The position numbers were made by a program, and so were the translations under genes. A DNA stretch of 64,000 nucleotides from Achromobacter pulmonis. Lineage in GTDB: Bacteria; Pseudomonadota; Gammaproteobacteria; Burkholderiales; Burkholderiaceae_B. A model generated the notes under the pieces. It did not search any database and was not told the origin of the DNA. It saw only the letters and a program-made list of their open reading frames with translations. Location of the stretch: contig NZ_POQS01000006.1 in the NCBI RefSeq assembly GCF_002885955.2, positions 395,644 to 459,643 of the forward strand. The letters run 5' to 3'. Below are positions 37,752 through 63,481 of this stretch, one piece after another. Within the stretch, counting starts at the first letter, position 1. Every line of letters begins with the position of its first letter.

Positions 37752-37769
37752 ATTTATTCGGGCTTTGCG

Positions 37770-40247: not shown

Positions 40248-40249
40248 GA

Positions 40250-40693: not shown

Positions 40694-40742
40694 TGAAACG
40701 CTCCTTTGGGTTCGCATTTCTGCCCTCCCGTATGTGTGGACG

Positions 40743-40768
40743 AAAAAAAACCCGCTTTAGGCGGGTGG
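40743..40768 (-). terminator. Terminator at the end of the tail operon
   Basis: Minus-strand ACCCGCC-TAAA-GCGGGT stem followed by eight T; it overlaps the stop codon of the last tail-region gene. The lysis genes lie beyond it and would need antitermination or their own promoter. Confidence 0.85.
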
Positions 40769-40969: not shown

Positions 40970-41399
40970 AAACTCCTCGAAAAGTCTTGTACGGGTGTTT
41001 CTCCACTGAGATGTGCAGGACCTTGCCGGGCGGGGCCTCCAACTTGATAGTGGAATCCGTCACGGCGTAGTAGGCACCATTCACGCATAGAGCTGCATCC
41101 AGCGGAACCCCGCTAAGGATTCCGCCGGCCAGCTCAATCCCCATATCAGGGCGCTCCACAAACGTCATGGCGATTGGATCAACCATGAAGTCCTGGGCCT
41201 CCATCGGGCCGCTAATACCGATGAACGGCACGCCGTCCTTTTGGTATCCCCGCGCCACCATGAAGCCCTGGCAGTTGACCCAACCGGTCATCAGGAGCGT
41301 ATCCGGATCGAAGTAGCCGACGTATCCGGATTTGGTCCTGAATGGGTGCCCGAGATGCACGTCTTCGTAGTTCTTGTAGTTGACGCCTTCAAAGCTCAT
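40950..41399 (-). CDS. Phage tail-associated protein, function unknown
   Basis: 149 residues, beta-rich, no membrane segment. GYVGYFDPDTLLMTGWVNCQ suggests a repeat-like beta element, and the middle part (GIELAGGILSGVPLDAALCV) is hydrophobic. Starts 2 bp after the stop of the tail tip gene, so likely a tail-tip or fibre-associated protein. Not recognised. Confidence 0.6.
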   Translation of the reverse strand: MSFEGVNYKNYEDVHLGHPFRTKSGYVGYFDPDTLLMTGWVNCQGFMVARGYQKDGVPFIGISGPMEAQDFMVDPIAMTFVERPDMGIELAGGILSGVPLDAALCVNGAYYAVTDSTIKLEAPPGKVLHISVEKHPYKTFRGVYASPEL

Positions 41400-41401
41400 G
41401 T

Positions 41402-47572: not shown

Positions 47573-48219
47573 TACTGCGTATCCTCGGAATAAATGCCTT
47601 TCGACAGCTCAACGCTGCCAGCCCAGAAGTAACCGTCATAATCGGAATAGCCGACTGGAAACGGGTTGCCCTGGGCTACCGTGTTGACTGGACCGTTGAA
47701 GGCGTACGAAGCCTTGTTATTCGGCGGGTCGCCTCCGGAAAGGCCGCCGGGAACGGGCGACAGCGCTTGGGCGAATCCTCCGAGCATCATTGCCGCGCCA
47801 GTCCACGCGGCCGCGCCAACAATGCCGCTCGCGGAGAACGCTGCAGCGAACCCACCCGCCGAAACAACCGCCGCGGCGATCATGACTGCACCAAGAACGA
47901 TCTGGAACAAGCCGCCACGCTTGCTACCCTTGATGATTGCCGCAACCCTGATTGGCTCCTCGGGATCAAGCCATTCCTGCAACCTTTCCGGACCAAGCCG
48001 GCGCGTGCCATGTAAGCAAGCGAATTCGCGCTTCTCGGCAGCAGCGCGAGTCATATACGCCTTGAAGCCCGGAATGAGCTCGCCCAAGGCGCAGATGACT
48101 TCCCCTACGCTGGTGACAACTAAGCGATGCTCACGCCCGAACAGCCGGCCCAGCTCGCCGTACAGGCGCACGATTCGAATGGGCTCGTCGTCGAGCACCA
48201 TGTTTTCCGTAGCGTCCAT
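47572..48219 (-). CDS. Tail assembly protein I
   Basis: 215 residues. The N-terminal part (IRIVRLYGELGRLFGREHRL) is the ubiquitin-like domain, GSKRGGLFQIVLGAVMIAAAV is a hydrophobic segment, and the Gly-rich C-terminus ends near NPFPVGYSDYDGYFW. Matches the lambda gpI/tail tip assembly family, and its order K-I-J is standard. Two bp follow the K stop. Confidence 0.85.
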   Translation of the reverse strand: MDATENMVLDDEPIRIVRLYGELGRLFGREHRLVVTSVGEVICALGELIPGFKAYMTRAAAEKREFACLHGTRRLGPERLQEWLDPEEPIRVAAIIKGSKRGGLFQIVLGAVMIAAAVVSAGGFAAAFSASGIVGAAAWTGAAMMLGGFAQALSPVPGGLSGGDPPNNKASYAFNGPVNTVAQGNPFPVGYSDYDGYFWAGSVELSKGIYSEDTQ

Positions 48220-48221
48220 TG

Positions 48222-49007
48222 CTATTTCTCCAGCGACTGGTGCCGGGCGATAGCCACGGTGCAGTGCTTGTACATGCCGCCATACATGGTCCTTTCGGAC
48301 GGGCGGCCATAGAGGTGATGAATCATTGCCTCGCTCATCGGATGGAGCGCCGGCCCCTCCTCCAGCTGCTCGACCCCGAGGTACAGGGCAGCGTGATTGG
48401 CGACATCAGCGCCGATCTGCATCAGAATCATGTCGCCCGTCTGCAGCGGCTCATCCTCGGCCAACACTCGCCAGCCATCGGAGGCGAGGTTGTCCATGTA
48501 GAGGTTCTGTCCTTTTTCCCACCATAGGTCGTCGCGCTTGTGGTTGGGGAGCTCGACGCCGCGGCATCGCCCGAACCAATCACGGATAATGGCGTAGCAG
48601 TCCAATACGCCGTGAACGAATGGCCGGCCCATCAACGGAATGGGCTTTCCGGTGGGCGCGATGCCAAAGACGTTGCCCGCCTTCGGCACGCCCTCGTCGT
48701 CCTTGTAGACCGCCACGATGTACCAGGGGACGTCCTCTTGATTGCAGTAGGCTCTGTCAGCGTCGGTGGCAGCATCCGGCCCCTCGGGGTGGGAATGCAC
48801 CACTGCCAGCACGCGGCCGGCTTCCTCGGCGCGGATCAAGTCCTCGGCGGCGATGACGAAGTACTCTTCCGGCCGGTCCGCCCGATTAAGAAGCGGCCAG
48901 TACTCGTCACGCCCCTCGGCATCCTGCACGATGAGGCCACAAGCCTCTTTCGGATACTCCTGCTCGGCGTGGACCTTAACGGCCCGGATCGTTTCCTTAG
49001 AAATCAT
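48222..49007 (-). CDS. Tail assembly protein K (JAB plus NlpC/P60 peptidase)
   Basis: 261 residues with two peptidase domains. N-terminal JAB/Mov34 metalloprotease-like: KEACGLIVQD and VVHSHPEGPDAATDAD (zinc ligands H, H, D). C-terminal NlpC/P60: GVLDCYAIIRDWFG carries the catalytic cysteine, and VANHAALYLGV the histidine. Needed for tail tip assembly and possibly peptidoglycan cleavage at infection. ATGA overlap with the L gene. Confidence 0.92.
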   Translation of the reverse strand: MISKETIRAVKVHAEQEYPKEACGLIVQDAEGRDEYWPLLNRADRPEEYFVIAAEDLIRAEEAGRVLAVVHSHPEGPDAATDADRAYCNQEDVPWYIVAVYKDDEGVPKAGNVFGIAPTGKPIPLMGRPFVHGVLDCYAIIRDWFGRCRGVELPNHKRDDLWWEKGQNLYMDNLASDGWRVLAEDEPLQTGDMILMQIGADVANHAALYLGVEQLEEGPALHPMSEAMIHHLYGRPSERTMYGGMYKHCTVAIARHQSLEK

Positions 49008-49738
49008 GCACGTAACCTGTCCGCTGCTGGCGCGGCGAGAATGTTGATGCACTGATCCGGGAAGCCGGCTTGACGCAGCCTGCAGGACGAGAGGCGGCCC
49101 GCGCAGCGGTCCTTGGCGGGATCAGTGGTGGGGTTGTCGTCCTCGTCAAACATGGCGGCCCCGGTGTATCCGCAGTACGGACCGCGATAGCCCCCCTTTC
49201 GCAGCCACGCGCAAACGCTCACCATTACGACCAGGTCGGGGATCTTCTGGCCGCCGGTGTCCAGCACGCTACCCAGCTCGAAGCTGACAACCTCATCATC
49301 TGAACTGAGCCGTGCCTCGATCCGCCACCGCTGCGGGGGAAACTGCTGCGTCGGATCAGCGTCAGGGTTTCCATCCGGGAAATTGACAGCATCCAGGTAC
49401 TTTCCAAGCGTCCGCCGCATAATGACAGGCGCTCCAACCATGTCTTGAAACTGGATACACAGCGCCGAAACCAAACCGGGAACCGGATCGCCGTTCACGT
49501 CGCTGCCGATGTTAGAAACAGTCAGGGTGGGCTGCGGCTGCACACCTTCTGACCGTTGTTCAATGCCCTCGATAGCAATCGGCCAGGCGGTGTACTCTTG
49601 CCCGTCGAAAACGATGTTTCCGACCTGCATGTACCCGTGGAAAAGCAAGCGCTCGCCACCAAACTCTGTCAGGTCGATCTCGTAGAGATCTACCTGATCG
49701 CCGATATCGAGCCGCTGCACGTCGGCGTAAATTCCCAT
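49004..49738 (-). CDS. Minor tail protein L
   Basis: 244 residues. FHGYMQVGNIVFDGQEYTAW is the N-terminal tail hub region; near the C-terminus the four cysteines 176, 189, 212 and 219 (VCAWLRKG, YCGYTG, DRCAGRLSSC) are set like the cluster ligands of lambda gpL, which binds an iron-sulfur cluster. Starts 49 bp after the M gene with AGGAG upstream. Confidence 0.88.
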   Translation of the reverse strand: MGIYADVQRLDIGDQVDLYEIDLTEFGGERLLFHGYMQVGNIVFDGQEYTAWPIAIEGIEQRSEGVQPQPTLTVSNIGSDVNGDPVPGLVSALCIQFQDMVGAPVIMRRTLGKYLDAVNFPDGNPDADPTQQFPPQRWRIEARLSSDDEVVSFELGSVLDTGGQKIPDLVVMVSVCAWLRKGGYRGPYCGYTGAAMFDEDDNPTTDPAKDRCAGRLSSCRLRQAGFPDQCINILAAPAADRLRA

Positions 49739-49787
49739 CTACATGCGCTCCTGAAAGTAGGAGATGTATTCGATTTCTGCGGGCATA

Positions 49788-50144
49788 TCACGCTCCAGGA
49801 GGGAGCTGGCCGGCGTACTTGAATTCACCGGATACGGTCCACATCGGACCACCTTGCGGGTTCGACTCCCACACAACGCAGCGCCACAACCGGCGTTCGC
49901 CAGTGAATGGATCGCGCCAGATAAACCGGCGGCCCATGTTGCGCTCAAGGAACCTATGCACCTCCAGCACCTCGGCCTTGGAGCCGGGCACTACGAAGGG
50001 CCAGGAGGTACGAAGCGCCTGCATGCGCGGTCCGTTGACCGCGACTGCTTCATACCCATCATTGAATTGCGCCGTGAGGAGCGATGGGACGTACCTTGCT
50101 GCGGTGCGGTCCGTAACCCGCCACGTAAAGGTTTCAAACGACAC
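49788..50144 (-). CDS. Minor tail protein M-like
   Basis: 118 residues from GTG 50144, chosen because AAGGGAG lies 6 nt upstream; another GTG two codons earlier (50150) overlaps the tape measure stop. FETFTWRVTDRTAARYVPSL and the RFLERNMGRRFIWRDPFTGE core fit the small tail-tip protein placed between tape measure and L. Function by position and weak similarity. Confidence 0.75.
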   Translation of the reverse strand: MSFETFTWRVTDRTAARYVPSLLTAQFNDGYEAVAVNGPRMQALRTSWPFVVPGSKAEVLEVHRFLERNMGRRFIWRDPFTGERRLWRCVVWESNPQGGPMWTVSGEFKYAGQLPPGA

Positions 50145-50146
50145 GC

Positions 50147-52945
50147 TCACCTCCCTTGCATCGCGCGCGACGAGTTGTAGGAAATGCCCCCTTGTCGCCA
50201 CGACTTCGCGATCTGGTCGCGGACCGTCGCAGCAATGGCTTCACCCAGAGCCTTGCCGACCTGCTCATTGCTTGAAACATTGGATTCCTGACCATCTCGC
50301 GAAACCGTGACGCTCACGTTGATAATCGGCGGCGCCGCAGCCGTACTTCCCAGTTCTCCTGCGCCCGCTTTGAGAGGCGTGACATAGCCCCCGTTTTTGC
50401 CACTCATCAGGTAGGTGTTCCCCCCCTCCGAATACAACTCGGGGCCGAGTTCGTTCACGCGGTACAGCGAATTGGCCGCCGTAGGACCTCCGGACGCTCG
50501 CGCGCCAGCAATCGAAGTCCAGCCGGAAGCCGTCATCCCTTCGGTGCTGCCTACCGCGGGCATGCCGCTACCCTGGTAGCTCGCGCCTGCTGAGACCCCA
50601 GCGGACGTGGCGGCGCCAGCGAGAGAGCCGACGATGCTGCCGACCATGCCTACAATCGCCTGACGCGCCGCAATTCGCGCCAAGTCTGCGATTACGGAGG
50701 TCGCGAAATCCTTGAAGGAGAGCTTTCCCGTCGTCGCGAAGCGGACAATCGCATCCTCCATGCCCTGGAAGGCATTGGAGAACAAGATCTTCGTCTGCCC
50801 GGCCACGTTCGCGGCAGAGTCCAGATAGTTGGCCAGCGCTGAAGTTGCGCCATTCTTCCAGTTGCCCTGCGCCTCCCGGACCTGGTCGAAATACTGCTGC
50901 TGCATCGACAGACGCAGATTCAGGTGTTCCTGCAAGAGCGCCGTCTGGCTCTGATAGGCCTCTGGCGTCATCTGCCCTGACGCCATCGACCGGTCGAACT
51001 GCGCCTGCTGGCGCTGGTAGTCCCGCAAGATCGCCTGGCGTGCGCGAAGCTCCTCCTGCGCGCGGTCGCCCAGGCCCACACCAGCTATCTGGTCGGCATA
51101 CTGTTGCTGCTCCAGATCTCGCGTGGAGGCCAAGCTGACACGCAGCGCGTCGACCTTGGCGGTTTCCTGCCTCGTGCGCAGTTCCCTTTCTGCCGCAACG
51201 TTCAGGTCAAGCTGGCGGCGCAGCAGGTCTTCCTGCGCCAGTAGGCTCTTCTGGTCGGCCGTCAGGACCTTCTTGGCCTTCAGGTCCGCGATCTGCTGTT
51301 CGAACTCCGCGCGCTTCTGCCCCCAGGTGGTCAGCTTGCCTTCGCTGGTGATCTGAGCCTGAAGAGAGGCCTCCGCCTCGCGATACTGCTGCAAGAGCTT
51401 GGTTGCGGCATCGTCCGTGTGAACCTTCTTTGTGCCCCTATCCGCAAACTGTCGCTCGATGGCAGCACGCGCCGCCTTGATGTCGGAAGCGGCCAGCGTC
51501 GTACCGTCTTTCTGCGCCTTGACGATGCGGTCGTCTAGGTCTTTCAGTGCCTTGCTGCGCTGCTCTGCCTTTGACGCGCCCTCTTCAATCAGCTTGGAGA
51601 TTTCCTGCCGCGCCTGGATCGCATCACGGTTGATCTTGAGCTGTTCCGCCTGCGCTTTCGCCGCGTCTTCGGCCTCCTTCTTCTGAGACTTCAGCGAATC
51701 AACGAGGGTCTGGGCATTTCGCAGACCCGCCTTCTCCTTGTCGCTGATCGATGCCCCTCCCTCAGCAGCGATTCGGATGATCTCGGCCCGTTGACGAACC
51801 TCGCGTTCTGCGCTCCTGATCTTTTCATCGACCGACTCTTCCCGGCCGATGTCCAACATCTTGCCCCAAGCCCACGACGCAGCTGCACCCAGCTTGTTCC
51901 AAGCCGATTCAAGCGATCCCAGGTTCTCCTTTTGCGCGGATGTGCGCCCAGTGAGCTCCACCGCCGCCTGCCGGGCGACCAGTTCCACCGCCTCCTGCGC
52001 TCGCCCCTGCTCCTTCAAAGCCAGAACCTGCGCGTATACGGAGCCGGTCAATATTCCGTAGCGCTCGTTCAGGTCAACAACCGCCGCCACGGGGTCCTTT
52101 CCGAGCTTTGCGAAAATCTCGACTGTGCCCTCAATCTCCGCGCCAGCCGCGCGCTGCATTTCAGCGGCGATGAGAGCCACGTCCGCCAGAGCGGTACCGG
52201 AAAGCTTCCCGGAGGCCGCCACGGCGTTCAGGGCTTGAACTGCGCGCGAATGACTTCCGGTAATCTGGCCCAGGCCGTGCGCCATCGCGACGAGATTGCT
52301 CGCCGTTACGCCCGCGGCATTGCCGGTCAGAATTAGTGACTCACGGAAGTTCTCCGCTTCGGAAGAACCTTTTACCCAAGCCACAGCCACCGCTGCGGCC
52401 GCCCCAGCCGCCAGGGTGTACGGATTGATGAGGGCCAACAGCGCCCCGCCCAGCGCCCGCGCCGCCGGCACGATGCCGCCGAACATGTCCTTCAACTGCC
52501 CGCCCTGCTGAAGCAACACGGTCAGCGGTTGCTGCCCGCCCTGCAACGAAACCACGATGTCAGTGATTTGGGCCGGGACTCCCCTAAGCGCGGCCGCCTG
52601 CTGCGCAGCGCTAATCCCATATTGGTTCAGCTGCTTCGTGGCGTTGGCCGCCGCCGCGCCCGCGCCCGCCAGCTTGGCCTTCAGTTCGTCCAGAAGCGAA
52701 GTCGGCACACCACGGAGGGCAGCGTTGTAAAGGATCTGCTCCTTTCGGGTCATGCTGATGGTGTTGGCCTGGTTCACCAGGGCGTCAACACGGCGGCGCT
52801 CCGCAGCCGTCAGCTTCGCATAGTCGGCCTGCGCGGCCTGAGACATGTCGCTGGTTCGGCGCTTGGCCGACGTAATCGCGGCGTCAAACTGCGAGGTGTC
52901 GACAACGATGTCTAGCCGCGCAGTGCCAATGCTTTCCTGTGCCAT
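50147..52945 (-). CDS. Tail tape measure protein
   Basis: 932 residues. N-terminal VDTSQFDAAITSAKRRTSDM, a long coiled-coil centre (about 300-640, EQLKINRDAIQARQEISKL, rich in Lys/Glu/Ala), a hydrophobic patch near 170-200 (ALLALINPYTLAAGAAAAVA), and a C-terminal lambda-like segment (FSNAFQGMEDAIVRFATTGK, FKDFATSVIADLARIAARQA). Length predicts the tail length. ATG 52945; a TTG two codons upstream is not needed. Confidence 0.93.
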   Translation of the reverse strand: MAQESIGTARLDIVVDTSQFDAAITSAKRRTSDMSQAAQADYAKLTAAERRRVDALVNQANTISMTRKEQILYNAALRGVPTSLLDELKAKLAGAGAAAANATKQLNQYGISAAQQAAALRGVPAQITDIVVSLQGGQQPLTVLLQQGGQLKDMFGGIVPAARALGGALLALINPYTLAAGAAAAVAVAWVKGSSEAENFRESLILTGNAAGVTASNLVAMAHGLGQITGSHSRAVQALNAVAASGKLSGTALADVALIAAEMQRAAGAEIEGTVEIFAKLGKDPVAAVVDLNERYGILTGSVYAQVLALKEQGRAQEAVELVARQAAVELTGRTSAQKENLGSLESAWNKLGAAASWAWGKMLDIGREESVDEKIRSAEREVRQRAEIIRIAAEGGASISDKEKAGLRNAQTLVDSLKSQKKEAEDAAKAQAEQLKINRDAIQARQEISKLIEEGASKAEQRSKALKDLDDRIVKAQKDGTTLAASDIKAARAAIERQFADRGTKKVHTDDAATKLLQQYREAEASLQAQITSEGKLTTWGQKRAEFEQQIADLKAKKVLTADQKSLLAQEDLLRRQLDLNVAAERELRTRQETAKVDALRVSLASTRDLEQQQYADQIAGVGLGDRAQEELRARQAILRDYQRQQAQFDRSMASGQMTPEAYQSQTALLQEHLNLRLSMQQQYFDQVREAQGNWKNGATSALANYLDSAANVAGQTKILFSNAFQGMEDAIVRFATTGKLSFKDFATSVIADLARIAARQAIVGMVGSIVGSLAGAATSAGVSAGASYQGSGMPAVGSTEGMTASGWTSIAGARASGGPTAANSLYRVNELGPELYSEGGNTYLMSGKNGGYVTPLKAGAGELGSTAAAPPIINVSVTVSRDGQESNVSSNEQVGKALGEAIAATVRDQIAKSWRQGGISYNSSRAMQGR

Positions 52946-52947
52946 GT

Positions 52948-53256
52948 TCAACTCTTACGGAAGATTTCCAAGGCCGCCCGCTCGATGATCCGAAGAACGT
53001 CCATGATTTCCTGCTGCTCCGCCTTGGGAAGCTCTTGACGGTCCAGATCGTGATACAGGACCCCGTAGTCCAGCCCTATCGGCCCCCCAGCCCCTACACG
53101 CCACTGTGTGTAGTTGCGCGTGAAAAGGTTGAACGCCAGCACGTGGTCAGGCCAGAGTTCGACGCAAGGCCGAGGAAAGTCACTGAGCTTTAGCCCGGCC
53201 ATTGCTAACGTTGCGGCTGATGGCGGCTCCCACAGGAACGCCGCCACAGCCTCCAT
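52948..53256 (-). CDS. Tail assembly chaperone, frameshifted part (DUF1799-like)
   Basis: 102 residues from an ATG that overlaps the upstream stop (TGATG). More likely it is reached by a -1 slip at the A AAA AAC site just before that stop, giving a fused protein of about 206 residues. LPKAEQQEIMDVLRIIERAA is a helical C-terminus; LEIFRKS is the end. In long-tailed phages the fused form and the short form together guide tail tube assembly on the tape measure. Confidence 0.85.
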   Translation of the reverse strand: MEAVAAFLWEPPSAATLAMAGLKLSDFPRPCVELWPDHVLAFNLFTRNYTQWRVGAGGPIGLDYGVLYHDLDRQELPKAEQQEIMDVLRIIERAALEIFRKS

Positions 53257-53567
53257 CAGTTTTTTTTGCGATCAACCCGGATGGCATCGTTGAAGGCGCT
53301 GGCAATCGCCAAATCAGCGCCAGGCTGATGCTCGCAAAGCAATTCGATCGATTCCTTGCTTACGCGCATGTCCGCGTCCCAATCCGCGATCAGGAGAAGC
53401 AGCAGGTCGGCGGTCGTAATCTCGCCGGCCGCCAACTGCTTCATCAACGCTTCGTACTCTTTGCCGGTCTTGTGGCGATACGTGATGTTCAGTTGCTGCT
53501 CGCGCCCCTGGCCGACGATGGTGATGCAGGCGTCGATAGTCGGATTGGATTTGATCTTGAACGTCAT
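53256..53567 (-). CDS. Tail assembly chaperone, short form (gpG-like)
   Basis: 103 residues: FKIKSNPTIDACITIVGQGR, a beta-rich N-terminus, then MKQLAAGEITTADLLLLLIA, ending RVDRKKN. Lies between the tube gene and the tape measure, the fixed location of the G/GT pair. Its final codons carry the slippery run. Confidence 0.85.
   Translation of the reverse strand: MTFKIKSNPTIDACITIVGQGREQQLNITYRHKTGKEYEALMKQLAAGEITTADLLLLLIADWDADMRVSKESIELLCEHQPGADLAIASAFNDAIRVDRKKN
53259..53265 (-). promoter_or_regulatory. Programmed -1 ribosomal frameshift site
   Basis: The minus strand reads CGC AAA AAA AAC TGA. The heptamer A AAA AAC is a canonical slippery sequence followed at once by the stop codon. A -1 shift continues AAA CTG ATG GAG in the frame of the downstream ORF. 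Confidence 0.8.
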
Positions 53568-54220
53568 TACGCGGCCTCGTAGCGGATGGGATCGGCGACC
53601 AGGGAAAAAACGGCAGTGTTCTGCAGGTTCTCGTTCACTTGGCCGACGGGGACCTTGTTGAACGAGGGATAGGCGTAGTAATAGAGCGTCGAGCCGCTGG
53701 GCAGCACGCCGCGCACGACCACGGGTTCGCGCAGGCGGTCAGCCTCGATCAGGGCCGCATACCAAGGCTTGTCCGGGTCATAGTCCAGCGACACCGTCAT
53801 GGTCATTGCGTTCTTGAACGTCGGCTTCTGGCGCTGGCGGCTGGTAGGATCTTCGACGTACTGATAACTGAAGAACTGCTGCTCGCCGCCGGCCATCACC
53901 ACGTCGCGCACCTGGTCCAGGTCTACCCAGGAACTGACCTCTTGATAGGAGCCCGCGCCCCCGCCGGCCGGGAACAGGACGGTGCTCGTGGTGTCCACGC
54001 CTTCCAGCTCGAAACTGTCGGCGTCTGCATTGGCGCTGCGCGCCACGGTCTCGTTCAGATTGGTCCACGCCGATTTCAGAACCAGGATGGAGCCGTCTTG
54101 CGGCGGGGCGGCTGCGGAGGCAACCGCCGGATTCGCATTGGAGAGGGCCGAGATGGCGGCGGCCGCGGCGAGCTTCGTCGAGATGGAATATCGCGTGCCG
54201 TTGATGAAGATGGAAGACAT
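53567..54220 (-). CDS. Major tail tube protein
   Basis: 217 residues. Beta-rich, with TSTVLFPAGGGAGSYQEVSS and KPTFKNAMTMTVSLDYDPDK; the N-terminal part has an Ala-rich stretch. Located between the tail terminator and the chaperones, and preceded by a hairpin, fits the abundant tube subunit (lambda gpV position). One-base overlap with the chaperone gene. Confidence 0.85.
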   Translation of the reverse strand: MSSIFINGTRYSISTKLAAAAAISALSNANPAVASAAAPPQDGSILVLKSAWTNLNETVARSANADADSFELEGVDTTSTVLFPAGGGAGSYQEVSSWVDLDQVRDVVMAGGEQQFFSYQYVEDPTSRQRQKPTFKNAMTMTVSLDYDPDKPWYAALIEADRLREPVVVRGVLPSGSTLYYYAYPSFNKVPVGQVNENLQNTAVFSLVADPIRYEAA

Positions 54221-54235
54221 TTGTGTTCCTCAAAT

Positions 54236-54262
54236 GAAAAAGCCCGGCGCGTGGCCGGGTTC
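54236..54262 (-). terminator. Terminator-like hairpin before the tail tube gene
   Basis: Minus-strand CCCGGC-CACGC-GCCGGG followed by CTTTTTC, 16 nt before the tube ATG. It could end a part of transcripts or act as a 5'-protecting stem for the tube message. Confidence 0.6.
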
Positions 54263-54282
54263 GATGTAGAAGCGGGGGAAGG

Positions 54283-54642
54283 TCAGGAGGGAAGGAACCA
54301 GATACCGAAGTCCTGGCGGGTGCCGTACTTCTTGATCGCCTCTTCGTAGAGGCTGGTGGGTGCGCCGTAGGGCTCTACGGCAGGAAAGCCACTTTCACAG
54401 AGAGCAGTTCCGATCAGATCTGCGATACCGGATGCCTCCAGGCGCGTGGTGGCCCAAACGTAGACCTGGACGCGTTGGTGACGCTTCTTTCGGCGCTTAC
54501 CCTCGACGTACCACTGCTCCGTGCCGCCGACGCCTTGGTAGACGATCAGCGGAAAAACCGGTTTGTCCGGCGTCACATCCGGGTAGATCCGGCCCGCGAC
54601 CAGCGGACCCAGCAGCACCTTGAGATCTGCATCAAGGCTCAT
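54283..54642 (-). CDS. Tail terminator/tail completion protein (DUF3168)
   Basis: 119 residues: MSLDADLKVLLGPLVAGRIY, PVFPLIVYQGVGGTEQWYVE and a C-terminal YEEAIKKYGTRQDFGIWFLP. The family DUF3168 caps the tail and joins it to the head. Overlaps the next upstream gene by 11 bp. Confidence 0.85.
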   Translation of the reverse strand: MSLDADLKVLLGPLVAGRIYPDVTPDKPVFPLIVYQGVGGTEQWYVEGKRRKKRHQRVQVYVWATTRLEASGIADLIGTALCESGFPAVEPYGAPTSLYEEAIKKYGTRQDFGIWFLPS

Positions 54643-55129
54643 CTCGCCCCCCCTGTCCAGCCAGCAATTCAGGGAGCCGTTCTCGCCCGCGCTGGATCAT
54701 GGCCGTCCGCGCCCTCGCCGAGGCGGCCTCATACGCCGGCCGCAGGAATGGATAGGCGGGCACCCACTTCGGCGTCGCCAGCTTGCGGCGCTTGTCTGTG
54801 ACATAGCTCCCGTCTGGTTTTCGGACCACCGCATAGATCTGCCAGTGCCCGAACTCGACCAGGTGGCCGTGCGGCGCCTTGCGCTTGTTCCAGGTGACGG
54901 CATACTGGATCTCCCGATCAGTGGAATACCGTTCCCGAAAGGCAAGGTAGATCGCTGCGCCGAGCACGCCGTTGTGCGTGTTTACGCGTGCCTTCGCCTC
55001 GTCCCGCAGAACCTCGCCGCCGGCGACGGCCATGGAGCGCGCCATGCTGATCCGTGCGGGCCCCAGCAACCGATCCAGGCCAGCCGACCAGCCGGAGGTG
55101 TCGAAAGACGCCTGAAGCCCTTTAGCCAT
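54632..55129 (-). CDS. HK97 gp10-like tail completion protein
   Basis: 165 residues from ATG 55129. ISMARSMAVAGGEVLRDEAKARV, the GVLGAAIYLAFRE core, GHLVEFGHWQIYAVV and a Pro-rich YPFLRPAYEAASAR, the usual gp10 motif order. It works at the head-tail joint. Overlaps the adaptor by 8 bp. Confidence 0.85.
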   Translation of the reverse strand: MAKGLQASFDTSGWSAGLDRLLGPARISMARSMAVAGGEVLRDEAKARVNTHNGVLGAAIYLAFRERYSTDREIQYAVTWNKRKAPHGHLVEFGHWQIYAVVRKPDGSYVTDKRRKLATPKWVPAYPFLRPAYEAASARARTAMIQRGRERLPELLAGQGGRDEP

Positions 55130-55472
55130 CGTTGCCTCCCAGTTCGCAGATGAGGAATGCGCTCCTTCGGTCCTTGAAGTCGCGGGTAATGCCCTTGACC
55201 TCGAAAACATCCCCGTCATGGATGATCCGCATTCCCTCGTCAATACCCAGCGCCCTGGCGGCCTCGAAGCTCACCAGAAAGCTATAACGCGCAATGGACG
55301 CTGACACGTTGCCTTGCAGGCTTGATCGAATCGCCCCCAACCCCGTCTCGTTCGCGATGCCGGCCCAAAGGGGACCGACATTCATCCATTCGTCCAGTGG
55401 TTGACCCGCATCGTCCACTGAACCGGAGCGGCGCTGTACCAGGATGCGGCGATTCCGCGCTCGGGCCGTCAT
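55122..55472 (-). CDS. Head-tail adaptor
   Basis: 116 residues: RRILVQRRSGSVDDAGQPLD, PLWAGIANETGLGAIRSSLQ, then FEVKGITRDFKDRRSAFLIC. Typical of the SPP1 gp16/HK97 head-closure group. ATGA overlap with the connector. Confidence 0.82.
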   Translation of the reverse strand: MTARARNRRILVQRRSGSVDDAGQPLDEWMNVGPLWAGIANETGLGAIRSSLQGNVSASIARYSFLVSFEAARALGIDEGMRIIHDGDVFEVKGITRDFKDRRSAFLICELGGNDG

Positions 55473-55888
55473 GGCAGCACCCGCGTATAAGGAAAGACCA
55501 AGCGGGCGAAGCCGGGGTTCTGGTGCAAGACCTTTTCGCCCGCAGCCTCCGGATTCTCGATCATGTCGCCCACCAGCATGATGATGGCCAGCTTCAGCGG
55601 CTCCGGCACCGGGCCTGGCTTGCTCGTGAACAGGATCGGAAGTACGCCCGCCTCGCTGGTTGTTTCGCCAGGCCAGATGGGCAGGGGGGATACCCTGCCG
55701 CCAACCGGCGTCCACTCATACGATGCCTCGGCAAGTGCAAAGCCCGTCCTGCGCTCGACCAGTTCGCGCGCCGCGGTAATGACGCCCGGAATATCCTCGT
55801 CCAGCGCGTCGTGGTCGATATGCAGTAGCCGCTTTACCTGCTCCACCGTCACCGGCTCCTGTGTCGCGGCAGCGATCAGGCGCAGCAT
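55469..55888 (-). CDS. Head-tail connector (gp6-like)
   Basis: 139 residues. VTVEQVKRLLHIDHDALDED starts the connector helix bundle; VITAARELVERRTGFALAEA and LKLAIIMLVGDMIENPEAAG complete it. Ring protein next to the portal. Two bp follow the preceding gene. Confidence 0.85.
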   Translation of the reverse strand: MLRLIAAATQEPVTVEQVKRLLHIDHDALDEDIPGVITAARELVERRTGFALAEASYEWTPVGGRVSPLPIWPGETTSEAGVLPILFTSKPGPVPEPLKLAIIMLVGDMIENPEAAGEKVLHQNPGFARLVFPYTRVLP

Positions 55889-55890
55889 GT

Positions 55891-56274
55891 CTACCCTCCC
55901 GCGAAGGCAACGGCATTGGGATGCGGGTCAATGTATCCCGCGTCCTTTAGCGCCGCGACCAGTGCAGCGTCGAAGTCGCGGACTTCGCCGCACTTGCCGT
56001 AGATGCTGTCGTGCAACACCAGCGCGCGAACCGATCCGCCCTCGCTCGGAGGCGCATCGGCGGCGGCGAGCGCGCCTTCCTCCGGCGGCGCCGCCGGCGT
56101 AGCCCCGGGGTCGCCCCCCTCCGAAACATTGATACTCACGCCGCCGTCGTTCTGGCCAGCCGGAACATCGCTGCCCGGTGTCGCTTGGCCGCCGCCCCCC
56201 TCCGTGGGCACCAACGCCGCAGGAGCGTTCGATTCGTCGCCGGCCGGGGCCGGCTGTGCCGCTTTTCGTGCCAT
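55891..56274 (-). CDS. Phage structural-region protein with low-complexity N-terminus
   Basis: 127 residues. The first ~85 residues are rich in Gly/Ala/Pro/Glu (PAALVPTEGGGGQATPGSDV) without a fixed fold. A folded C-terminus (SIYGKCGEVRDFDAALVAAL, then DAGYIDPHPNAVAFAGG) could be a small capsid-bound module. It might decorate heads or bind the connector. ATG 56274 with AAGGA upstream; an extended start is possible. Confidence 0.65.
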   Translation of the reverse strand: MARKAAQPAPAGDESNAPAALVPTEGGGGQATPGSDVPAGQNDGGVSINVSEGGDPGATPAAPPEEGALAAADAPPSEGGSVRALVLHDSIYGKCGEVRDFDAALVAALKDAGYIDPHPNAVAFAGG

Positions 56275-56293
56275 GGTTTCGTCCTTGCTAAAT

Positions 56294-56322
56294 TGCGCCG
56301 GGGGCACTCGCCCTCCGGCGCA
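56294..56322 (-). repeat. Strong hairpin after the capsid gene
   Basis: TGCGCCGG-GGGC-ACTC-GCCC-(T)-CCGGCGCA, a 12-bp stem with one bulge, between the capsid stop and the next gene start. No long T-run follows, so it is more likely an mRNA-stabilising or processing stem than a terminator. Confidence 0.65.
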
Positions 56323-56340
56323 GGGTGACTACTTGGCCGC

Positions 56341-57579
56341 TTAGGCGGCGGCCCCGTGCTGGAACAGCTTGACCGCGCCGCCAACGTCGATCAGGTTGCC
56401 CCCGGAGCGCATCCACGCCAGGAAGCCAACCTGGCCCTTCTTGACATAGGCCGAGTCGTTGAAGCGGAACAGGGTGATCGACATGACATCGCGGATCTTG
56501 TACAGGCTGAAGTCTCCGAAGGCGATGGACTTCGCCGCGGCGGCCGGCACCGGCATATGCTGGTTGATCTGGATATCGCGGTTCAGCAGGCGATCCGGAG
56601 CGCCCCCGGGGTTGCCCTGCTCGTAGCCGGGAACGAAGATCGGGCGACCCTGATCGTCCTTGATCTTGCGCACCATCTTGAGCATGTCATCGTGGAACAT
56701 CCACTTGGCGCCCAGGCGATAGGCCGGGTCCACGCTGTGTTCCAGATCCACCAGATCGTCGTAGGTGATGACGGGCGTTGCCGACACCGCGCCGATCTTG
56801 CCCGTCACCGCGGCAGTGACAACCCCGGTCGGGCCGGCAGTGCCGGGGCCAACGGTGTAATGGCGGTTGGTGACGCGGCCGAGGCGCGTTTGCAGGCGCT
56901 GACGAATGAAGCCCTCGATGTCCGAGGAGCTGTCCTGCAGAAGTTCCCAGGGGACGGTCACCACCTTGGAACTGAACTTGTACACCGACAGGCCCTTCGT
57001 GCCGAACGACACGTCCTGGTCGCTGGCCGACTGATTCTCGGCGACGATTTCGCCTTCTTCGTTGGTGCCGTCGCTGGTCGGATACTGCATGGGCTCGCCG
57101 CCGCCGGTCGTGAAGACGTTCGCGACTGCGCGCATCCCGCCGAACGCCTTGAGCGCGTCCAGAATCGAAGTGGCGACAGTTGTCGGAACGGTATAGCCGC
57201 CCTGCTCGGGATTGACCGAGGGGTTGCCGCTCATGGCGTTGCGCACATGCGTCCAGTCCTCCGCAGTCAGTGCGTTGTCGCCCCCACGGCACCACTTGTC
57301 GAACAACGCCACATCAGCGGGGCGGCCCTTGTTGGCGCCGGGGCGCACGTCGTGCTCACGCACGCCGGCGTTCTGCAGGTCGTTTTCGGCAGTCAGATCC
57401 ATCATCTTCTGATGGCGCGCGATGGCGGCGTCGATGCGCTCGATTTCCGCCGTGTTGTCGTCGTATTTCTTCTGGTGGTCAGCGTTCCAGTTGGCGCCGG
57501 GGTTGTTGTCCAGCAGGGCGCGGGTTTCCTTGGCCAGCGCGTTGCGGCGCTCCCGCTCGGCTTGCAGATTGAAAGCCAT
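56341..57579 (-). CDS. Major capsid protein, HK97 fold
   Basis: 412 residues. An N-terminal coiled scaffold-like segment (1-60, RERRNALAKETRALL) is followed by the capsid body: NPEQGGYTVPTTVATSILDA, VVTVPWELLQDSSSDIEGFI, VDPAYRLGAKWMFHDDMLKM and a C-terminal FSLYKIRDVMSITLFRFNDS. The protease just upstream would remove the N-terminal delta domain. Flanked by hairpins on both sides. Confidence 0.95.
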   Translation of the reverse strand: MAFNLQAERERRNALAKETRALLDNNPGANWNADHQKKYDDNTAEIERIDAAIARHQKMMDLTAENDLQNAGVREHDVRPGANKGRPADVALFDKWCRGGDNALTAEDWTHVRNAMSGNPSVNPEQGGYTVPTTVATSILDALKAFGGMRAVANVFTTGGGEPMQYPTSDGTNEEGEIVAENQSASDQDVSFGTKGLSVYKFSSKVVTVPWELLQDSSSDIEGFIRQRLQTRLGRVTNRHYTVGPGTAGPTGVVTAAVTGKIGAVSATPVITYDDLVDLEHSVDPAYRLGAKWMFHDDMLKMVRKIKDDQGRPIFVPGYEQGNPGGAPDRLLNRDIQINQHMPVPAAAAKSIAFGDFSLYKIRDVMSITLFRFNDSAYVKKGQVGFLAWMRSGGNLIDVGGAVKLFQHGAAA

Positions 57580-57599
57580 AGTGTGGTTTCCTTCAGTCG

Positions 57600-57622
57600 A
57601 AAAAAAACCGCCCGAGGGCGGT
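57600..57622 (-). terminator. Terminator-like hairpin before the capsid gene
   Basis: Minus-strand ACCGCCC-TC-GGGCGGT followed by eight T, 20 nt before the capsid start, with AAGGAAACC between. A strong terminator in the middle of a late operon points to attenuation or processing. Confidence 0.75.
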
Positions 57623-57648
57623 GGGGTTGTCCTGCGAGCGGGAGCCGC

Positions 57649-58389
57649 TTAAGCAGGTGTTGCCTCGATCAGCGAAAACCGCCGCTCAAGATCGTTTCTG
57701 AGAGCCTGCACCTTGGCGTCATCGACGGCCGGCGATTGCGGCTCGGTCAGGGCCTTGGGCGCGTTCTGGTAAGCGCCGAGGTTCCAGGTGTTCGATGCCG
57801 TCGCCTTCTTTCCGGCCGCCTCGACAATTCGATCCACAAAGCCATGCTCCAGCGCCTCTTCGGCGCTGAACCAGGTTTCGGCATCCATCCACGCCTTCAC
57901 TTGGTCCGCTTTCTGCCCGGTTCGCGCCTGGTAGTCGGCAGTGATCGCGCCGTCGACCTTTTCCAGTAGGTCCGCCGTTTCGCGCATGTCGGCCTTGTTG
58001 CCAATGGCGACCGTCCACGCGTTGTGGATCATGAAGAAGGCGCCCTTGGTGATTTCCACCTCGTCGCAAGCCATGCAGACATCGGTCGCCGCAGAGGCGG
58101 CCAGCCCGTCGACATGGCCGATGACCTTGGCCGAGTGCTGGCGAATCGCGGTCATCATGGCGCGGGCGTCGAAAACGTCACCGCCCGGTGAATTGATCCG
58201 CAAGTGAATGGTTTCCGCCTTGATGGCGTTGAGCGTCTTGGCGAACTCGGTCGCGTCAATGTCGCCCCACCATCCGCCGATAACGCCGTGAAGGTAGATG
58301 GTGGCCTCGCCCTCGCCGGCTTCGGCGCGCAACGGCTTCGCCCCCGAGGCGTTGTCACGCGCCAGCTGAAGCAGTTTCGGAATTTTCAT
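57649..58389 (-). CDS. Prohead protease, ClpP-like (S14/S49 type)
   Basis: 246 residues. IYLHGVIGGWWGDIDATEFA, LRINSPGGDVFDARAMMTAI (oxyanion loop), HVDGLAASAATDVCMACDEV (nucleophile Ser) and AFFMIHNAWTVAIGNKADMR (catalytic His). Overlaps the portal gene start region by 35 bp. Matures capsid and scaffold. Confidence 0.95.
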   Translation of the reverse strand: MKIPKLLQLARDNASGAKPLRAEAGEGEATIYLHGVIGGWWGDIDATEFAKTLNAIKAETIHLRINSPGGDVFDARAMMTAIRQHSAKVIGHVDGLAASAATDVCMACDEVEITKGAFFMIHNAWTVAIGNKADMRETADLLEKVDGAITADYQARTGQKADQVKAWMDAETWFSAEEALEHGFVDRIVEAAGKKATASNTWNLGAYQNAPKALTEPQSPAVDDAKVQALRNDLERRFSLIEATPA

Positions 58390-59698
58390 CTTGGATTTCC
58401 CTGTCTTGATCGTCTTGTTGCTGCGCCGGACCCTGCGCAGCGCCAGCAAGGGTTGGCCGGTCAAACGCACCGCCCAGCGGCTGGAGGTTCTTCAATCGGC
58501 GCACTTCGTCCACCGACATCCAACCCTGAGTGCCTGGCCCGCCCAGCGCCTTAGAGAAGTACTCGCCCTGAGCCTTGGAATCGCCGGCCATCAATCCGTC
58601 CACGTTGTGTTCCGTGAAGTAGCGGGCGGTCCGGAACAGTTTCCGGTTCAGTTCGGCCTTGATGCGCTTCAGGTGCGGGGCAAGCGTGTATTTCACGAAA
58701 CCGATACCCATCTGCTCGATTCCGCTACCCCAACTGCTCGCCTTCGTCATTTCCCCGATCATGTGCGGGGGGACGCCAAAGGCCCGCGCGATGTCAATAA
58801 CCTGCCATTGCCGCGATTCCAGGAGCTGCTGGTCCACGGCCGACATAGTCAGTTCCTTGATGTCCAGCCCTTCGGTCAGAATCAGCGGGATTCGGCGGTT
58901 TCCCTGAATGCCGCCATATTTCGCTACCCAGGCGGCCCGGAAGTCCTCCTGCATATCGGGAGACATCGCCGCTGGGGCCTTGATGGCGACCTCCGGCTTT
59001 CCTCCTTCACTGAAAAACTTTCCGGCATGTTCGTCGCCCTGAATTGCAATGCCAATGCCGTTGCGCGCCCCCCACTGAATCACCGACATAGAACTCACGC
59101 CGTTGAAGCCGAAGCCGGGAAGGTGGATGACGTCGTCCTGGTCGACGGTGAAGTACCCCTTGTCATCGTGAAAGGTGTATTGCAGCCGCCTCGGGTCGCG
59201 GGGGCTATCCCTCGCCTGCTCGCGAATATCCACTCGGTCGCGTGGCCACGGGATCATGCCCGTCATGGCGCCGGCGCGGTTGCGGGTGATGTAGCCGACG
59301 CCATCGCCACGCAGCAGCATCTGGGTCACCAGAAACTCCCAGCCTGCGGACGCCACCCAGTTCGGGCAGAACTCTTCATTCAGCGTCCACCAATAGCTGT
59401 GATCGACCTGCTGCCGTGATCCCCTGATCCGCTCGAAGATCGGCAGCGGCAGCTGGGCGATAGATCCGGCGATCAGCGACACGCAAGCGTACACCGCTGA
59501 AACACGCATCGCCGTCCTTTCATTCACCACGGCGCCCGAGGCGGTCCGAGGGTCGCCGAATACCTCGAAAATCCGGATATCAGACGACGAAACGGTTTCC
59601 CCGTCAGCAAGGCTGGCGAATCCTGGTTCCTTCCGTTCCGCCTGCGGCGGCTGTTCGGCGCTGCCGCCACCCAAGAGTTTGGAAAGTAGTCCCATCAC
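58355..59698 (-). CDS. Portal protein
   Basis: 447 residues, HK97 gp3-like: [40 protein letters not shown], and [20 protein letters not shown], the conserved portal segment, followed by [20 protein letters not shown]. Forms the dodecameric DNA gate. Its start overlaps the terminase stop by 4 bp. Confidence 0.95.
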
Positions 59699-61395
59699 AT
59701 CACCACGAATCCTTGTTGAATTTTCTTGACGCCGGCCGCAGGGTTCAGCGCCATGAGCTGCGCGGCGTCGAACAACGCCATGAGCGGGTCAATCTTCGCC
59801 GTTCCACTCGCCTGCTTGGTGATCAAGATGCCATTGGCGCGTTGCTCGATACGCGCATTTCCCACCGACCAGGCCAGCAATGCCTGATCGCCATGCAGAA
59901 ACGTCCCTTCGGCCAGTTTTCGCTCGACCGTCTTGATGATTCCGCCAAGCTTCCAGCCCTGGGACACACCGACGATAAGATCCTCGGGGATTTCTGCCTC
60001 TACCAGCGCGTCGTTGAAGGTCACCCCGTTCTGGTCGGCCCCGATTGCGTTTTTCTCTGGGAATAGCCCCGCGTCGTAAACTTGGCGCACCAGGGCGGCC
60101 AGTTCGGCGGTGTCGTCGCCGATATGCTTCACGACGACCAGCTCGCCGGCACGCTCGAAATCTCGCAATCTGGGTTCAATCTCTTTCCGACGTTCCAACG
60201 CCGAAGGATGAGCCCAGGCGCGCCCCCAATGGAGCCAGTTGCCTGTGCCGCGCTCTCGCCCGATAAATGCCAGCCCGAGCAGGTCATCGAGGCCACCGCC
60301 GTCAATGCCTGCCGTGACCACTTCGGAGCGCTCTAGCAAGGCGTGCAGCGTCAATGTGCGCTGCCCGCGCGGCAGCCAATGGTCCGCGCCCGCCCAGCGG
60401 TCGGAACGCAGGTTCAGCCCGATTTCGACATTCAGGTGCTTGGCCAGGAATTGCTGGAATGCTCCGTCCGTTCTGGCCTGCAGCAGCCTAAGCTGATCGC
60501 CTAGCCATTCGGCACTGACCGAACGGCCTAGGTTGGGGTTGGTGATATAGAAGTTGGCCGGATCGAGATAGGCCTTTGCCTCGATCATGTCGTCCGGAAA
60601 TTCATACAAGATTCCCAGCGTCTTCGGGTCTATCACCTTCCCGTCTCGCACATCCCGCCAGTAAGAGAGCTTTTCTCTGAATACACCCGCCGGCGGCTCG
60701 TCGCTTTGTGTGGTGAGGTAGATGACCCAGCCCTCGTCCCGCGATATCTGGCCGCCCAGAGCCTCAAGGAACATCGCCACGGCGTTTGCACGCTTGCCGA
60801 ACAGCCAAAGTTCATCAACGAGGATACGGCCCGACTTCTTCCCCGACACCGTGTCGGTGTCGGCCGCAACAACCTTCAAACTGTTGCGCGTCGTGCGATG
60901 CGTGATGGTGCGTACATGATCCTGGACATGGAACATGTCGGATAGTTCTTCGTCCGCCCGCACCATCGCCGCAGCTGGCTTGAAGCTGTTGTCGGCCACC
61001 TCCTTCGTGGGCGCCAGGATCAGGTGTTCCTCTTCCTGGCGCCAGCAGATGATGACCGCGGTCAGCATGATGCCGGCGGCAATAGTCGATTTCGTATTCT
61101 TCTTGCTGATGAGCAACCCGTATTCACGGATCAGCTGCTTTCCCGTGTCCTCTTCATAGCCGCCAAAGATGGCGCGGACGAAATCGAACACCCATTCCTC
61201 GGAACATTCGCCAAACGTCTGATGCCGGTATTCGCCGATGGCATCGTCATAGACCTGCGGGAGGTCAACTACCTTCAACTGCTTGAAGATGCCCAACGCA
61301 TACTCGGCCTGGTCCGGAAAGATCGGCGGGGGGATTATCGACTGTCGCGCCCGCAGTCGATCCGCCCAGTCTGGGCACGCGGTGGTCCAGGCCAT
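59695..61395 (-). CDS. Terminase large subunit
   Basis: 566 residues. N-terminal ATPase with a Walker A-like [18 protein letters not shown] and Walker [15 protein letters not shown]-terminal nuclease with [20 protein letters not shown] (first Asp pair) and a later D-rich segment. Terminase_1-type as in HK97-like cos phages. 3 bp after the small subunit. Confidence 0.95.
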
Positions 61396-61983: not shown

Positions 61984-62316
61984 TCATGCCCGCTGGCGAT
62001 AGCCCATGTCTTCCCGCGTCTTGGCGTCATGGCAGCCGACCTTGCGCCCGTGCGCATCGCGCGAGACGCAAAGCACCTGCGTGTTCTCGTCCGTGTCCGC
62101 GCCTCCATCGTTCAGGCTGACCTTATGGTCCAGCTCGAAGCCGTAGGGGTACACGGTTAGCTTGCCGCAATGGGCACAGTGCGGGTCAGCCGACCATACG
62201 CGCAGCCGCCGCTCTTGCAGCCTGCGGCCTGTCAGACGCGTGGCGCTGGGTGTGGGCGCAGTGGCCAGTCTGGAGCCCGCCATTGCAATACGCGGCTTGA
62301 GTGTCTTGAGCTTCAT
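61984..62316 (-). CDS. HNH endonuclease (packaging associated)
   Basis: 110 residues. CAHCGKLTVYPYGFELDHKV has the CxxC zinc knuckle and the first catalytic His; NDGGADTDENTQVLCVSRDAH and C-terminal GCHDAKTRED complete the fold. In HK97-type phages the adjacent HNH protein stimulates terminase to cut cos. The 139-bp gap upstream (62317-62455) has no gene. Confidence 0.92.
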   Translation of the reverse strand: MKLKTLKPRIAMAGSRLATAPTPSATRLTGRRLQERRLRVWSADPHCAHCGKLTVYPYGFELDHKVSLNDGGADTDENTQVLCVSRDAHGRKVGCHDAKTREDMGYRQRA

Positions 62317-62455: not shown

Positions 62456-63229
62456 CTAGTCGTCAGCAGGCCAGCTGCGAATGAGCAGCTCGGCCCGAGG
62501 AACGCCGGCGCCCCCGCCGACCGTGTACCGGATATCCAGCACCTGCATTGGGAAACCCGCAAACACCTCCCGCATCTTCGGGTGGTCGTTCACGCTTACG
62601 AGCGCGCGCCCCTTCATGGTCCGCATGGACTCGGCCATCGATACGTACTCGTTCAGTCCGAACTCCACGCCGTAGCCGGCCGTGTCCCAGTACGGCGGGT
62701 CCATGTAGAAAAGCGTGTGCGGCCGGTCATAGCGCTTCACGCAGTCCCGCCAGGGCAGATGCTCGACGTAGATACGTGCCAACCGCAGATGCGCCGCAGA
62801 CAGCGTCTCCTCCAGCCGCAGCAGGTTGAGGCCCGGCGGTGCGGTCGTAGCCGTGCCGAACGTCATACCCTCCAGCTTGCCGCTGAAGCAGTTCTGCATC
62901 AGGTAATAGAAGCGCGCCGCCCGCTGAATGTCGGTCAACGTCTCCGGGCGGGTTTCCTTCTGCCACTTGAACATCTGCCTGCTGGTCAGCGCCCACTTGA
63001 ACTGGCGGACGAATTCTTCCAGGTGGTGCTGCACCACGCGGTACAGGTTGACCAGGTCGCCGTTGATGTCGTTCAACACCTCCACCTTGGCCGGCTCCGG
63101 CCTGGCGAAGAGAAGCGCAGCGCCCCCGGCGAAGGGTTCGACGTAGCAGGAATGCTTGGGAAAATGGGGAAGTATCTTGTCGGCCAGGCGGCGCTTGCCA
63201 CCCAGCCAGGGAATGATCGGTTTTGCCAC
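62456..63229 (-). CDS. DNA adenine methyltransferase (Dam-type)
   Basis: 257 residues from GTG 63229. PIIPWLGGKRRLADKILPHF and VEPFAGGAALLFARPEPAKV bind SAM; HTLFYMDPPYWDTAGYG is the catalytic DPPY motif. Probably protects phage DNA or regulates it. The frame is open upstream to 63418, but that part reads through the tRNA gene and is rejected. RBS weak; start could be elsewhere near 63229. Confidence 0.9.
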   Translation of the reverse strand: MAKPIIPWLGGKRRLADKILPHFPKHSCYVEPFAGGAALLFARPEPAKVEVLNDINGDLVNLYRVVQHHLEEFVRQFKWALTSRQMFKWQKETRPETLTDIQRAARFYYLMQNCFSGKLEGMTFGTATTAPPGLNLLRLEETLSAAHLRLARIYVEHLPWRDCVKRYDRPHTLFYMDPPYWDTAGYGVEFGLNEYVSMAESMRTMKGRALVSVNDHPKMREVFAGFPMQVLDIRYTVGGGAGVPRAELLIRSWPADD

Positions 63230-63357: not shown

Positions 63358-63432
63358 TGGTTGCGGCGGCAGGAATCGAACCTGCGCCATCCGGGTTATG
63401 AACCCGGCGCTCTACCACTGAGCTACGCCGCG
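63358..63432 (-). tRNA. tRNA-Met(CAU) with initiator features
   Basis: 75 nt including CCA. Acceptor 5' CGCGGCG against 3' CGCCGCA gives a C1-A72 mismatch; anticodon stem CCGGG/CCCGG has three G-C pairs next to the loop TTCATAA. Both are initiator hallmarks. The D-stem GCTC/GAGC has a C11-G24 pair, as in elongators. T-arm GCAGG-TTCGATT-CCTGC is regular. Same strand and just upstream of the phage late genes. Confidence 0.92.
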
Positions 63433-63439
63433 AAATGGG

Positions 63440-63473
63440 AAAGCCCCGACCGGCATATCCGTAGCGGGGCTTT
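63440..63473. terminator. Terminator-like hairpin beside the tRNA
   Basis: AAAGCCCC (63440-63447) pairs with GGGGCTTT (63466-63473) across an 18-nt loop. T-runs are short on both sides (TTTCGTTTGT on plus). It may stop transcripts coming from the right into the tRNA or close a tRNA-Gly transcript. Confidence 0.6.
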
Positions 63474-63481
63474 CGTTTGTA

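Follow-up and report, generated by a model that had tools for sequence, protein, structure and literature searches.

Location and genetic context of the tRNA gene

The window analysed here is the whole stretch of 64,000 nucleotides of Achromobacter pulmonis DNA, in which ARAGORN located a tRNA-Met(cat) gene at exactly 63358-63432, minus strand. Positions 63361-63432 also match the Rfam family RF00005 (73.5 bits, E 3.3e-14), and the tRNA strand folds into a cloverleaf of -34.9 kcal/mol, equally good folds being found in 2 of 200 shuffles. These three results bear out the original prediction, made from the letters, of an initiator-type tRNA(CAU) at this place. From left to right, the features of the locus are the following:

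37265..37653, plus strand: tmRNA (tag ANDERFALAA), left neighbour of the prophage block (ARAGORN, Rfam)
38912..59698, minus strand: rest of the late block, with portal, protease, capsid, tail and lysis-type genes (Pfam and ORF reading)
59695..61395, minus strand: terminase large subunit (Pfam; 91% identical to that of phage PHB09)
61399..61860, minus strand: terminase small subunit (Pfam; 86% identical to that of PHB09)
61984..62316, minus strand: HNH endonuclease (Pfam)
62456..63229, minus strand: D12-class Dam methylase, first gene after the tRNA, with a probable GTG start (Pfam)
63358..63432, minus strand: initiator-type tRNA(CAU) with C1xA72, three G:C anticodon-stem pairs, C11-G24, A73 and encoded CCA
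63396..63402, minus strand: anticodon loop UUCAUAA, positions 32-38 (CUCAUAA in the host initiator), from the letters
63439..63474, minus strand: GC-rich hairpin (-23.0 kcal/mol with flank) ending 6 bases before the tRNA, with a weak T tract after it

The stems read from the letters (CGCGGCG/CGCCGCA, GCTC/GAGC, CCGGG/CCCGG and GCAGG/CCTGC) are intact except at 1:72. The acceptor contains C1xA72, G2:C71, C3:G70, G4:C69 and A73, followed by an encoded CCA; the anticodon stem contains G29-G30-G31:C39-C40-C41, and the D-loop has 7 nt. The predicted C1-A72 mismatch and three G-C pairs of the anticodon stem are both present in the letters. With its open 1:72, three consecutive G:C pairs at 29-31:39-41 and CAU plus A73, the gene has the features of an initiator, but the secondary formylation element A11:U24 is absent, its place being taken by C11-G24. 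For this reason, it is classed here as an initiator-type variant and not as a canonical tRNA-fMet. According to a published survey, the 1:72 mismatch is found in 98.6% of predicted bacterial initiators, while 99.5% of elongators are paired, and the CCA is frequently encoded in initiator genes (PMC5143459).

The tRNA is followed on the same strand by the genes for Dam, HNH, the small and large terminase subunits, a Clp-type protease, capsid and tail tube, in this order, which agrees with the predicted position just upstream of the late operon. Within 38912..59698, the Clp-type protease, capsid and tail tube were recognized by Pfam and the remaining product names come from ORF reading. The original prediction also held that this position fits neighbouring genes with GTG starts. 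However, this part is unsupported: if the most upstream start of each of the 21 late genes listed is taken, 11 begin with ATG, seven with GTG and three with TTG, several of the ten GTG/TTG genes have a nearby ATG, and only that for Dam, the first gene, lacks an ATG within its first 120 codons. A CAU initiator also serves GUG.

The hairpin located just before the tRNA suggests that late transcription reads through a terminator-like element, as occurs in other phages. The terminator scan did not call this hairpin (it gave one other site on the same strand, 2.3 being expected by chance), and the sole site found by the promoter scan is on the opposite strand. On the left side, an SOS-response-associated peptidase-like ORF (37607-38542, ORF reading) overlaps and follows the tmRNA end. 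In the search for an att site, the tmRNA end (37561-37900) was compared with everything from the right side of the tRNA up to the end of the contig, and no shared direct or inverted repeat of at least 15 bases was found.

To the right of the tRNA, the 36-base hairpin is followed by about 170 bases and a LysR fragment that retains just the substrate domain. Beyond this fragment, IetA, IetS, a WYL protein, BrxC, SIR2 and HerA were detected by family search, and ORF reading adds transposases and TraC-like conjugation genes. No integrase, repressor or replication gene was seen in the ORF lists of this side, which were read without profile search. Since defence and conjugation genes stand where the early genes belong, the prophage resembles a late half fused with a defence island plus a conjugative element, a remnant whose early half has apparently been lost. 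For this reason, expression of the tRNA in this strain is doubtful, and the gene may be silent. The defence genes IetAS, BrxC, SIR2 and HerA near the prophage block (L041, 1458-15307) are apparently situated within a conjugative element.

Host tRNA genes and phage relatives

The host genome (6.94 Mb, 96 contigs) contains 57 RF00005 matches. In the 34 distinct sequences read, the CAU tRNAs are the window gene, a canonical initiator with A11-U24 in three copies, and an elongator type (L034); a further host CAU tRNA is possible, because not all 57 matches were read. The three host tRNA-fMet genes (C56:267145, 268632 and 329682) have C1xA72, G2:C71, C3:G70, G4:C69, the three anticodon-stem G:C pairs, CAU, A73 and the encoded CCA in common with the window gene. 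However, they possess A11-U24, C32, a 9-nt D-loop and another body; the corresponding features of the window gene are C11-G24, U32 and a D-loop of 7 nt. The nearest host tRNAs among those compared are a tRNA-Arg(tct) (78% global identity) and the initiator (77%). The comparison with host tRNA-Met genes that had been proposed as a check separates the window gene from all three initiator copies, and its body is unlike that of the usual host initiator, as predicted. The window tRNA is single-copy in its own genome, the other three genome matches being tRNA-Trp genes of 74% identity.

Finding the identical gene at a core locus of strains that lack the prophage had been named as the observation that would speak against a phage-borne gene. 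No such gene was found among 268 genomes of the family (Alcaligenaceae), where the search gave 11 matches in 10 genomes and the best match outside the own genome was 91% identical. A corrected pattern for this type of tRNA is present in 3 of the 268 genomes, the own genome counted. A pattern needing an 8-10 nt D-loop gave 0/398 and 0/399 genomes, which does not indicate absence, because the window tRNA itself is outside that pattern. The order-level DNA search yielded 49 matches in 45 of 399 genomes, many of which are ordinary host tRNAs (loci near the centre were viewed).

The phage-borne nature of the tRNA was confirmed by the presence of the same gene, in the same neighbourhood, in a free phage. 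Bordetella phage vB_BbrS_PHB09 (MN103401, 15175-15249) carries it unannotated, at the same place as the window, between the replication region and the BrnT, Rha, HNH and terminase genes. The two tRNAs are 92.8% identical over 69 bases and, besides the protein identities of TerL and TerS given above, the late block as query is covered to 26% at 80% DNA identity. C11-G24, GGG:CCC, the open 1:72 and the upstream hairpin are also shared. However, the PHB09 tRNA has UxU at 1:72, C38 and U73, and a BrnT toxin gene with its partner and Rha are located between tRNA and HNH, where the window has Dam.

The window, PHB09, three IMG/VR contigs and five family genomes were combined in a ten-sequence alignment. 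Position 1:72 is unpaired in all ten (CxA in eight, UxU in two), and both GGG:CCC at 29-31:39-41 and C11-G24 are present in 10/10. The bases at 1:72 thus vary among the ten sequences without closing the mismatch. In the whole cloverleaf, 196 of 210 cells are paired, the ten open 1:72 cells included in the count, and three pairs have changed on both sides among the relatives, 12:23 doing so in three of them. U73 replaces A73 in PHB09 and L293, which may lower charging. Two relatives seem degraded: L220 has an 8-nt loop and lacks the CCA, and the acceptor stem of L221 is broken. Outside the alignment stand L223 and L227, paired as U1-A72, the canonical A11-U24 initiator L226, and L225 and L228, two matches with GxA and CxA in the tRNA array of one genome.

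The neighbourhood is comparable in eight of the nine relatives, on the basis of ORF reading except for PHB09 and for the downstream HNH of L289, which is 81% identical over 75 aa to that of the window. L289 also has a Rha-like ORF. Near the tRNA there are BrnA-like and terminase-like genes in L293, BrnA/BrnT-like genes in L219 and L220, and HNH- or terminase-like genes in L222, L224/L236 and L301; L221, the one relative outside these eight, has a RelA/SpoT-like gene upstream. A tblastn search with TerL, TerS, HNH and Dam of the window gave no match at E 1e-4 in L219, L220, L221, L222, L224/L236 and L301, and only a weak TerL match in L293; therefore these neighbourhoods are comparable but not gene-by-gene homologous. 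A similar upstream hairpin is found in seven of the nine relatives (PHB09, L219, L222, L224, L221, L289 and L301), and none comparable was seen in L220 or L293.

A recurrent protein of about 210-240 aa is encoded within 1.8 kb upstream of the tRNA in PHB09 (L042), L289, L293, L222 and L224. It is a candidate late regulator with a possible C-terminal helix-turn-helix, seen by eye. No Pfam or PHROGs family was matched by the two recurrent proteins tested or by the upstream proteins of PHB09, L224 and L301. The host also carries a short phage-type tRNA-Gly(UCC) (L048, G000:C56:142434-142503) that is nearly the same as the one at L219:1174-1246, which adjoins the initiator-type tRNA in that related prophage.

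Initiator-type tRNAs in viral contigs and their anticodons

IMG/VR contigs were searched with four patterns in which the D-stem, the GGG:CCC stem and CAU were fixed and 1:72 was free; one also allowed CAC, and none came up. The first C11-G24 pattern and the A11-U24 pattern had an 8-10 nt D-loop, and another C11-G24 pattern covered GCTC/GAGC stems with a 7-nt D-loop. Before filtering there were 28 matches for the 7-nt D-loop pattern, at least 120 for the pattern that also allowed CAC, 44 for the first C11-G24 pattern and at least 124 for the A11-U24 pattern; in the same order, contig-end cuts removed 0, 0, 1 and 1, and poor folds 5, 8, 1 and 3. Identical sequences were counted once, and the class sizes are lower bounds.

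Among the matches listed, a 1:72 mismatch is present in 105 of 153 distinct viral tRNAs with C11-G24, GGG:CCC and CAU (15/35 for the first C11-G24 pattern, 12/21 for the 7-nt D-loop pattern and, again among the matches listed, 78/97 for the pattern that also allowed CAC), and in 76 of 101 with A11-U24, GGG:CCC and CAU. The ratio between both D-stem types, 105 to 76 among the matches listed, depends on the patterns, and the sequences are related and not phylogenetically independent. As a control, the distinct non-CAU tRNAs of the same listed loci showed the mismatch in 7 of 412 cases, and those that also have GGG:CCC in 1 of 19; the comparison of the 15/35 set with 6/255 non-CAU controls, taken from the loci of the first C11-G24 and the A11-U24 patterns, gave an odds ratio of 31 (p 2.5e-11). 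The elongator-like C11-G24, which the original prediction had read correctly, is the constant mark of this large class of phage tRNAs. The class mismatches comprise CxA, AxC, AxA, GxA and UxU, as expected if the open pair, and not its letters, is kept. Paired members amount to 48 of 153 among the matches listed, 23 of them being U1-A72. In the loci of the first C11-G24 and the A11-U24 patterns, 6 of 20 CAU tRNAs without GGG:CCC are mismatched, so an open 1:72 also occurs in phage CAU tRNAs outside the class.

Fourteen other phage records, left out of the class counts, contain both D-stem types, and several are paired at 1:72 (V12, BaileyBlu, PfAn1, and Alone3 with CxG). For instance, the annotated tRNA-fMet of Stenotrophomonas phage QDWS359 (H15) adjoins the large terminase gene and shares C1xA72, GGG:CCC and CAU with the window tRNA, but it has the canonical A11-U24 D-stem instead of C11-G24. 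The tRNA-Met of Pseudomonas phage PfAn1 (L044, 2500-2575) carries C33 in place of the near-universal U33. In Mycobacterium phage ValleyTerrace (L277), an initiator-type tRNA with AxC at 1:72 is found near a gene annotated as peptidyl tRNA hydrolase.

Initiator-like tRNAs with other anticodons were also detected. An Eoetvoesiella caeni prophage (L224:1501-1576, minus strand) contains one with CAC, and the same sequence is present in L236 and L279; the L224 locus (G122, same family as the host) is 100% identical over 3076 bases to an Eoetvoesiella caeni record. The L224/L236 tRNA has C1xA72, GGG:CCC, C11-G24, A73, CCA and a similar upstream hairpin, and terminase-like genes follow it (ORF reading). 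The CAC anticodon matches GUG, and such a tRNA would start GUG genes, perhaps with formyl-valine. A scan for CAV anticodons (GGG:CCC, 5-nt variable loop, GCAACCA) in the genome contigs of 84,980 species found four loci, namely L235, L236 and L237 (CAC) and L238 (CAG). L237 belongs to an array of 26 tRNAs, while L235 and L238 are on two Clostridia MAG contigs among ordinary bacterial genes (ORF reading), so that assembly error is possible for both. Viral contigs provided L232 (CAG) and L234 (UAC), and L232, L234, L235, L237 and L238 all have A11-U24. Four further candidates that were non-CAU by pattern (L229, L230, L231 and L233) were rejected, since they are actually CAU. A speculative idea, to which we assign a small probability, is that phages maintain an initiator tRNA reserved for the late phase, with a start-codon specificity that can be altered.

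Possible functions of the phage tRNA

In a report on engineered initiators, the main determinants of initiation are two, the open 1:72 and the three G:C pairs, which are described as excluding a tRNA from elongation, and elements such as A11:U24 are reported to act in formylation (PMC8576571). E. coli tRNAGln with C1:A72 and the three G:C pairs initiates, and so does M. jannaschii tRNATyr with these and more acceptor-stem changes, in the absence of A11:U24 (PMC8576571). Both engineered molecules resemble the window tRNA in combining an elongator body with C1:A72 and three G:C pairs, and Mj-itRNA also in lacking A11:U24; however, they are man-made, their anticodon is CUA, and Mj-itRNA has the extra acceptor-stem changes (PMC8576571). 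Our best reading is that the window tRNA would be a natural counterpart of these elongator-body initiators (PMC8576571).

Judging from its sequence and from this analogy, the window gene probably encodes a phage initiator tRNA with an elongator-style D-stem, placed at the head of the late operon. Late transcription would pass the hairpin, and the tRNA would be processed out of the 5' portion of the resulting transcript. It would be charged by the host MetRS and formylated by means of the determinants C1xA72, G2:C71, C3:G70, G4:C69 and A73. The open 1:72 would keep the tRNA from EF-Tu and GGG:CCC would hold it in the P site, so that during late-protein synthesis the phage tRNA would add to the host initiator or replace it. 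A11-U24 would be dispensable, or would merely tune formylation. Its absence from the window tRNA counts against the initiator reading, given its published role in formylation (PMC8576571).

It is possible, although we consider it doubtful, that the main role of the gene is the survival of host VapC-type nucleases that cut initiator tRNA, the phage providing a replacement with a different anticodon loop. This would be another reason for keeping the gene and is compatible with a phage initiator tRNA. General nuclease evasion by phage tRNAs is a published hypothesis (PMC10264068), the cut made in initiator tRNA by an enteric VapC falls between A38 and C39 (PMC4105405), and the host genome has eight PIN-domain matches. 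Among the matches listed, 34 of 105 viral C11-G24 initiator-type tRNAs have a base other than A at position 38, 15 of the 105 coming from a pattern that fixed A38, and C38 is present in eight of the ten aligned sequences, including L220 with its 8-nt loop; the A11-U24 viral set is no control for this position, because its pattern fixed A38. However, the window tRNA, like L224, keeps A38, its cleavage site A38/C39 is unchanged, and its loop differs from that of the host only at position 32. Moreover, PIN-domain proteins cut many targets, and tRNA-fMet genes were reported to be generally avoided by phages where this tRNA is a target of VapC-LT2 (PMC10264068). Nuclease evasion may thus shape the family, as position 38 changes in relatives and class, while the window copy shows no visible sign of it.

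It is unlikely that the gene is a remnant, decaying or free of selection, with no function in this strain. The early half of the prophage is apparently absent, with the LysR fragment, IetAS, BrxC, SIR2, HerA and conjugation-type genes in its place, and two relatives, L220 and L221, look decayed. Nevertheless, the window stems are intact save 1:72, the relatives have changed on both sides of three pairs, and the free phage PHB09 retains the gene.

A methionine elongator, or a tRNA for isoleucine (AUA), whose 1:72 mismatch arose by accident is a very improbable reading of the gene. The elongator-type D-stem and the 48 of 153 class members paired at 1:72, among the matches listed, would fit. However, its acceptor is unlike the usual tRNA-Ile2 acceptor, the mismatch appears in 10/10 aligned sequences in two forms while GGG:CCC is invariant, and both initiator elements are described as barring elongation (PMC8576571). 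Capture of a host initiator gene at the phage border can hardly be entertained: the gene is of CAU initiator type and 77% identical to the host initiator, but the host has three separate canonical initiators, the PHB09 gene is far closer, and no match above 91% exists outside the own genome in the 268 family genomes.

The purpose of phage tRNAs is debated, codon supply and nuclease evasion being two published ideas. Among the openly licensed papers searched, no listed title or abstract start dealt with phage initiator tRNAs that have C11-G24 or an anticodon other than CAU. The joining of the two main initiator determinants to an elongator-style D-stem throughout a large class of phage tRNAs suggests that phages may act on initiation itself and, as such genes are found in many phages, viruses may supply a tRNA of their own for starting proteins late in infection. 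These natural variants make the role of A11:U24 testable. The naturally occurring CAC tRNAs would provide a system in which initiation is specific for the start codon, something that to our knowledge is otherwise known only as engineered.
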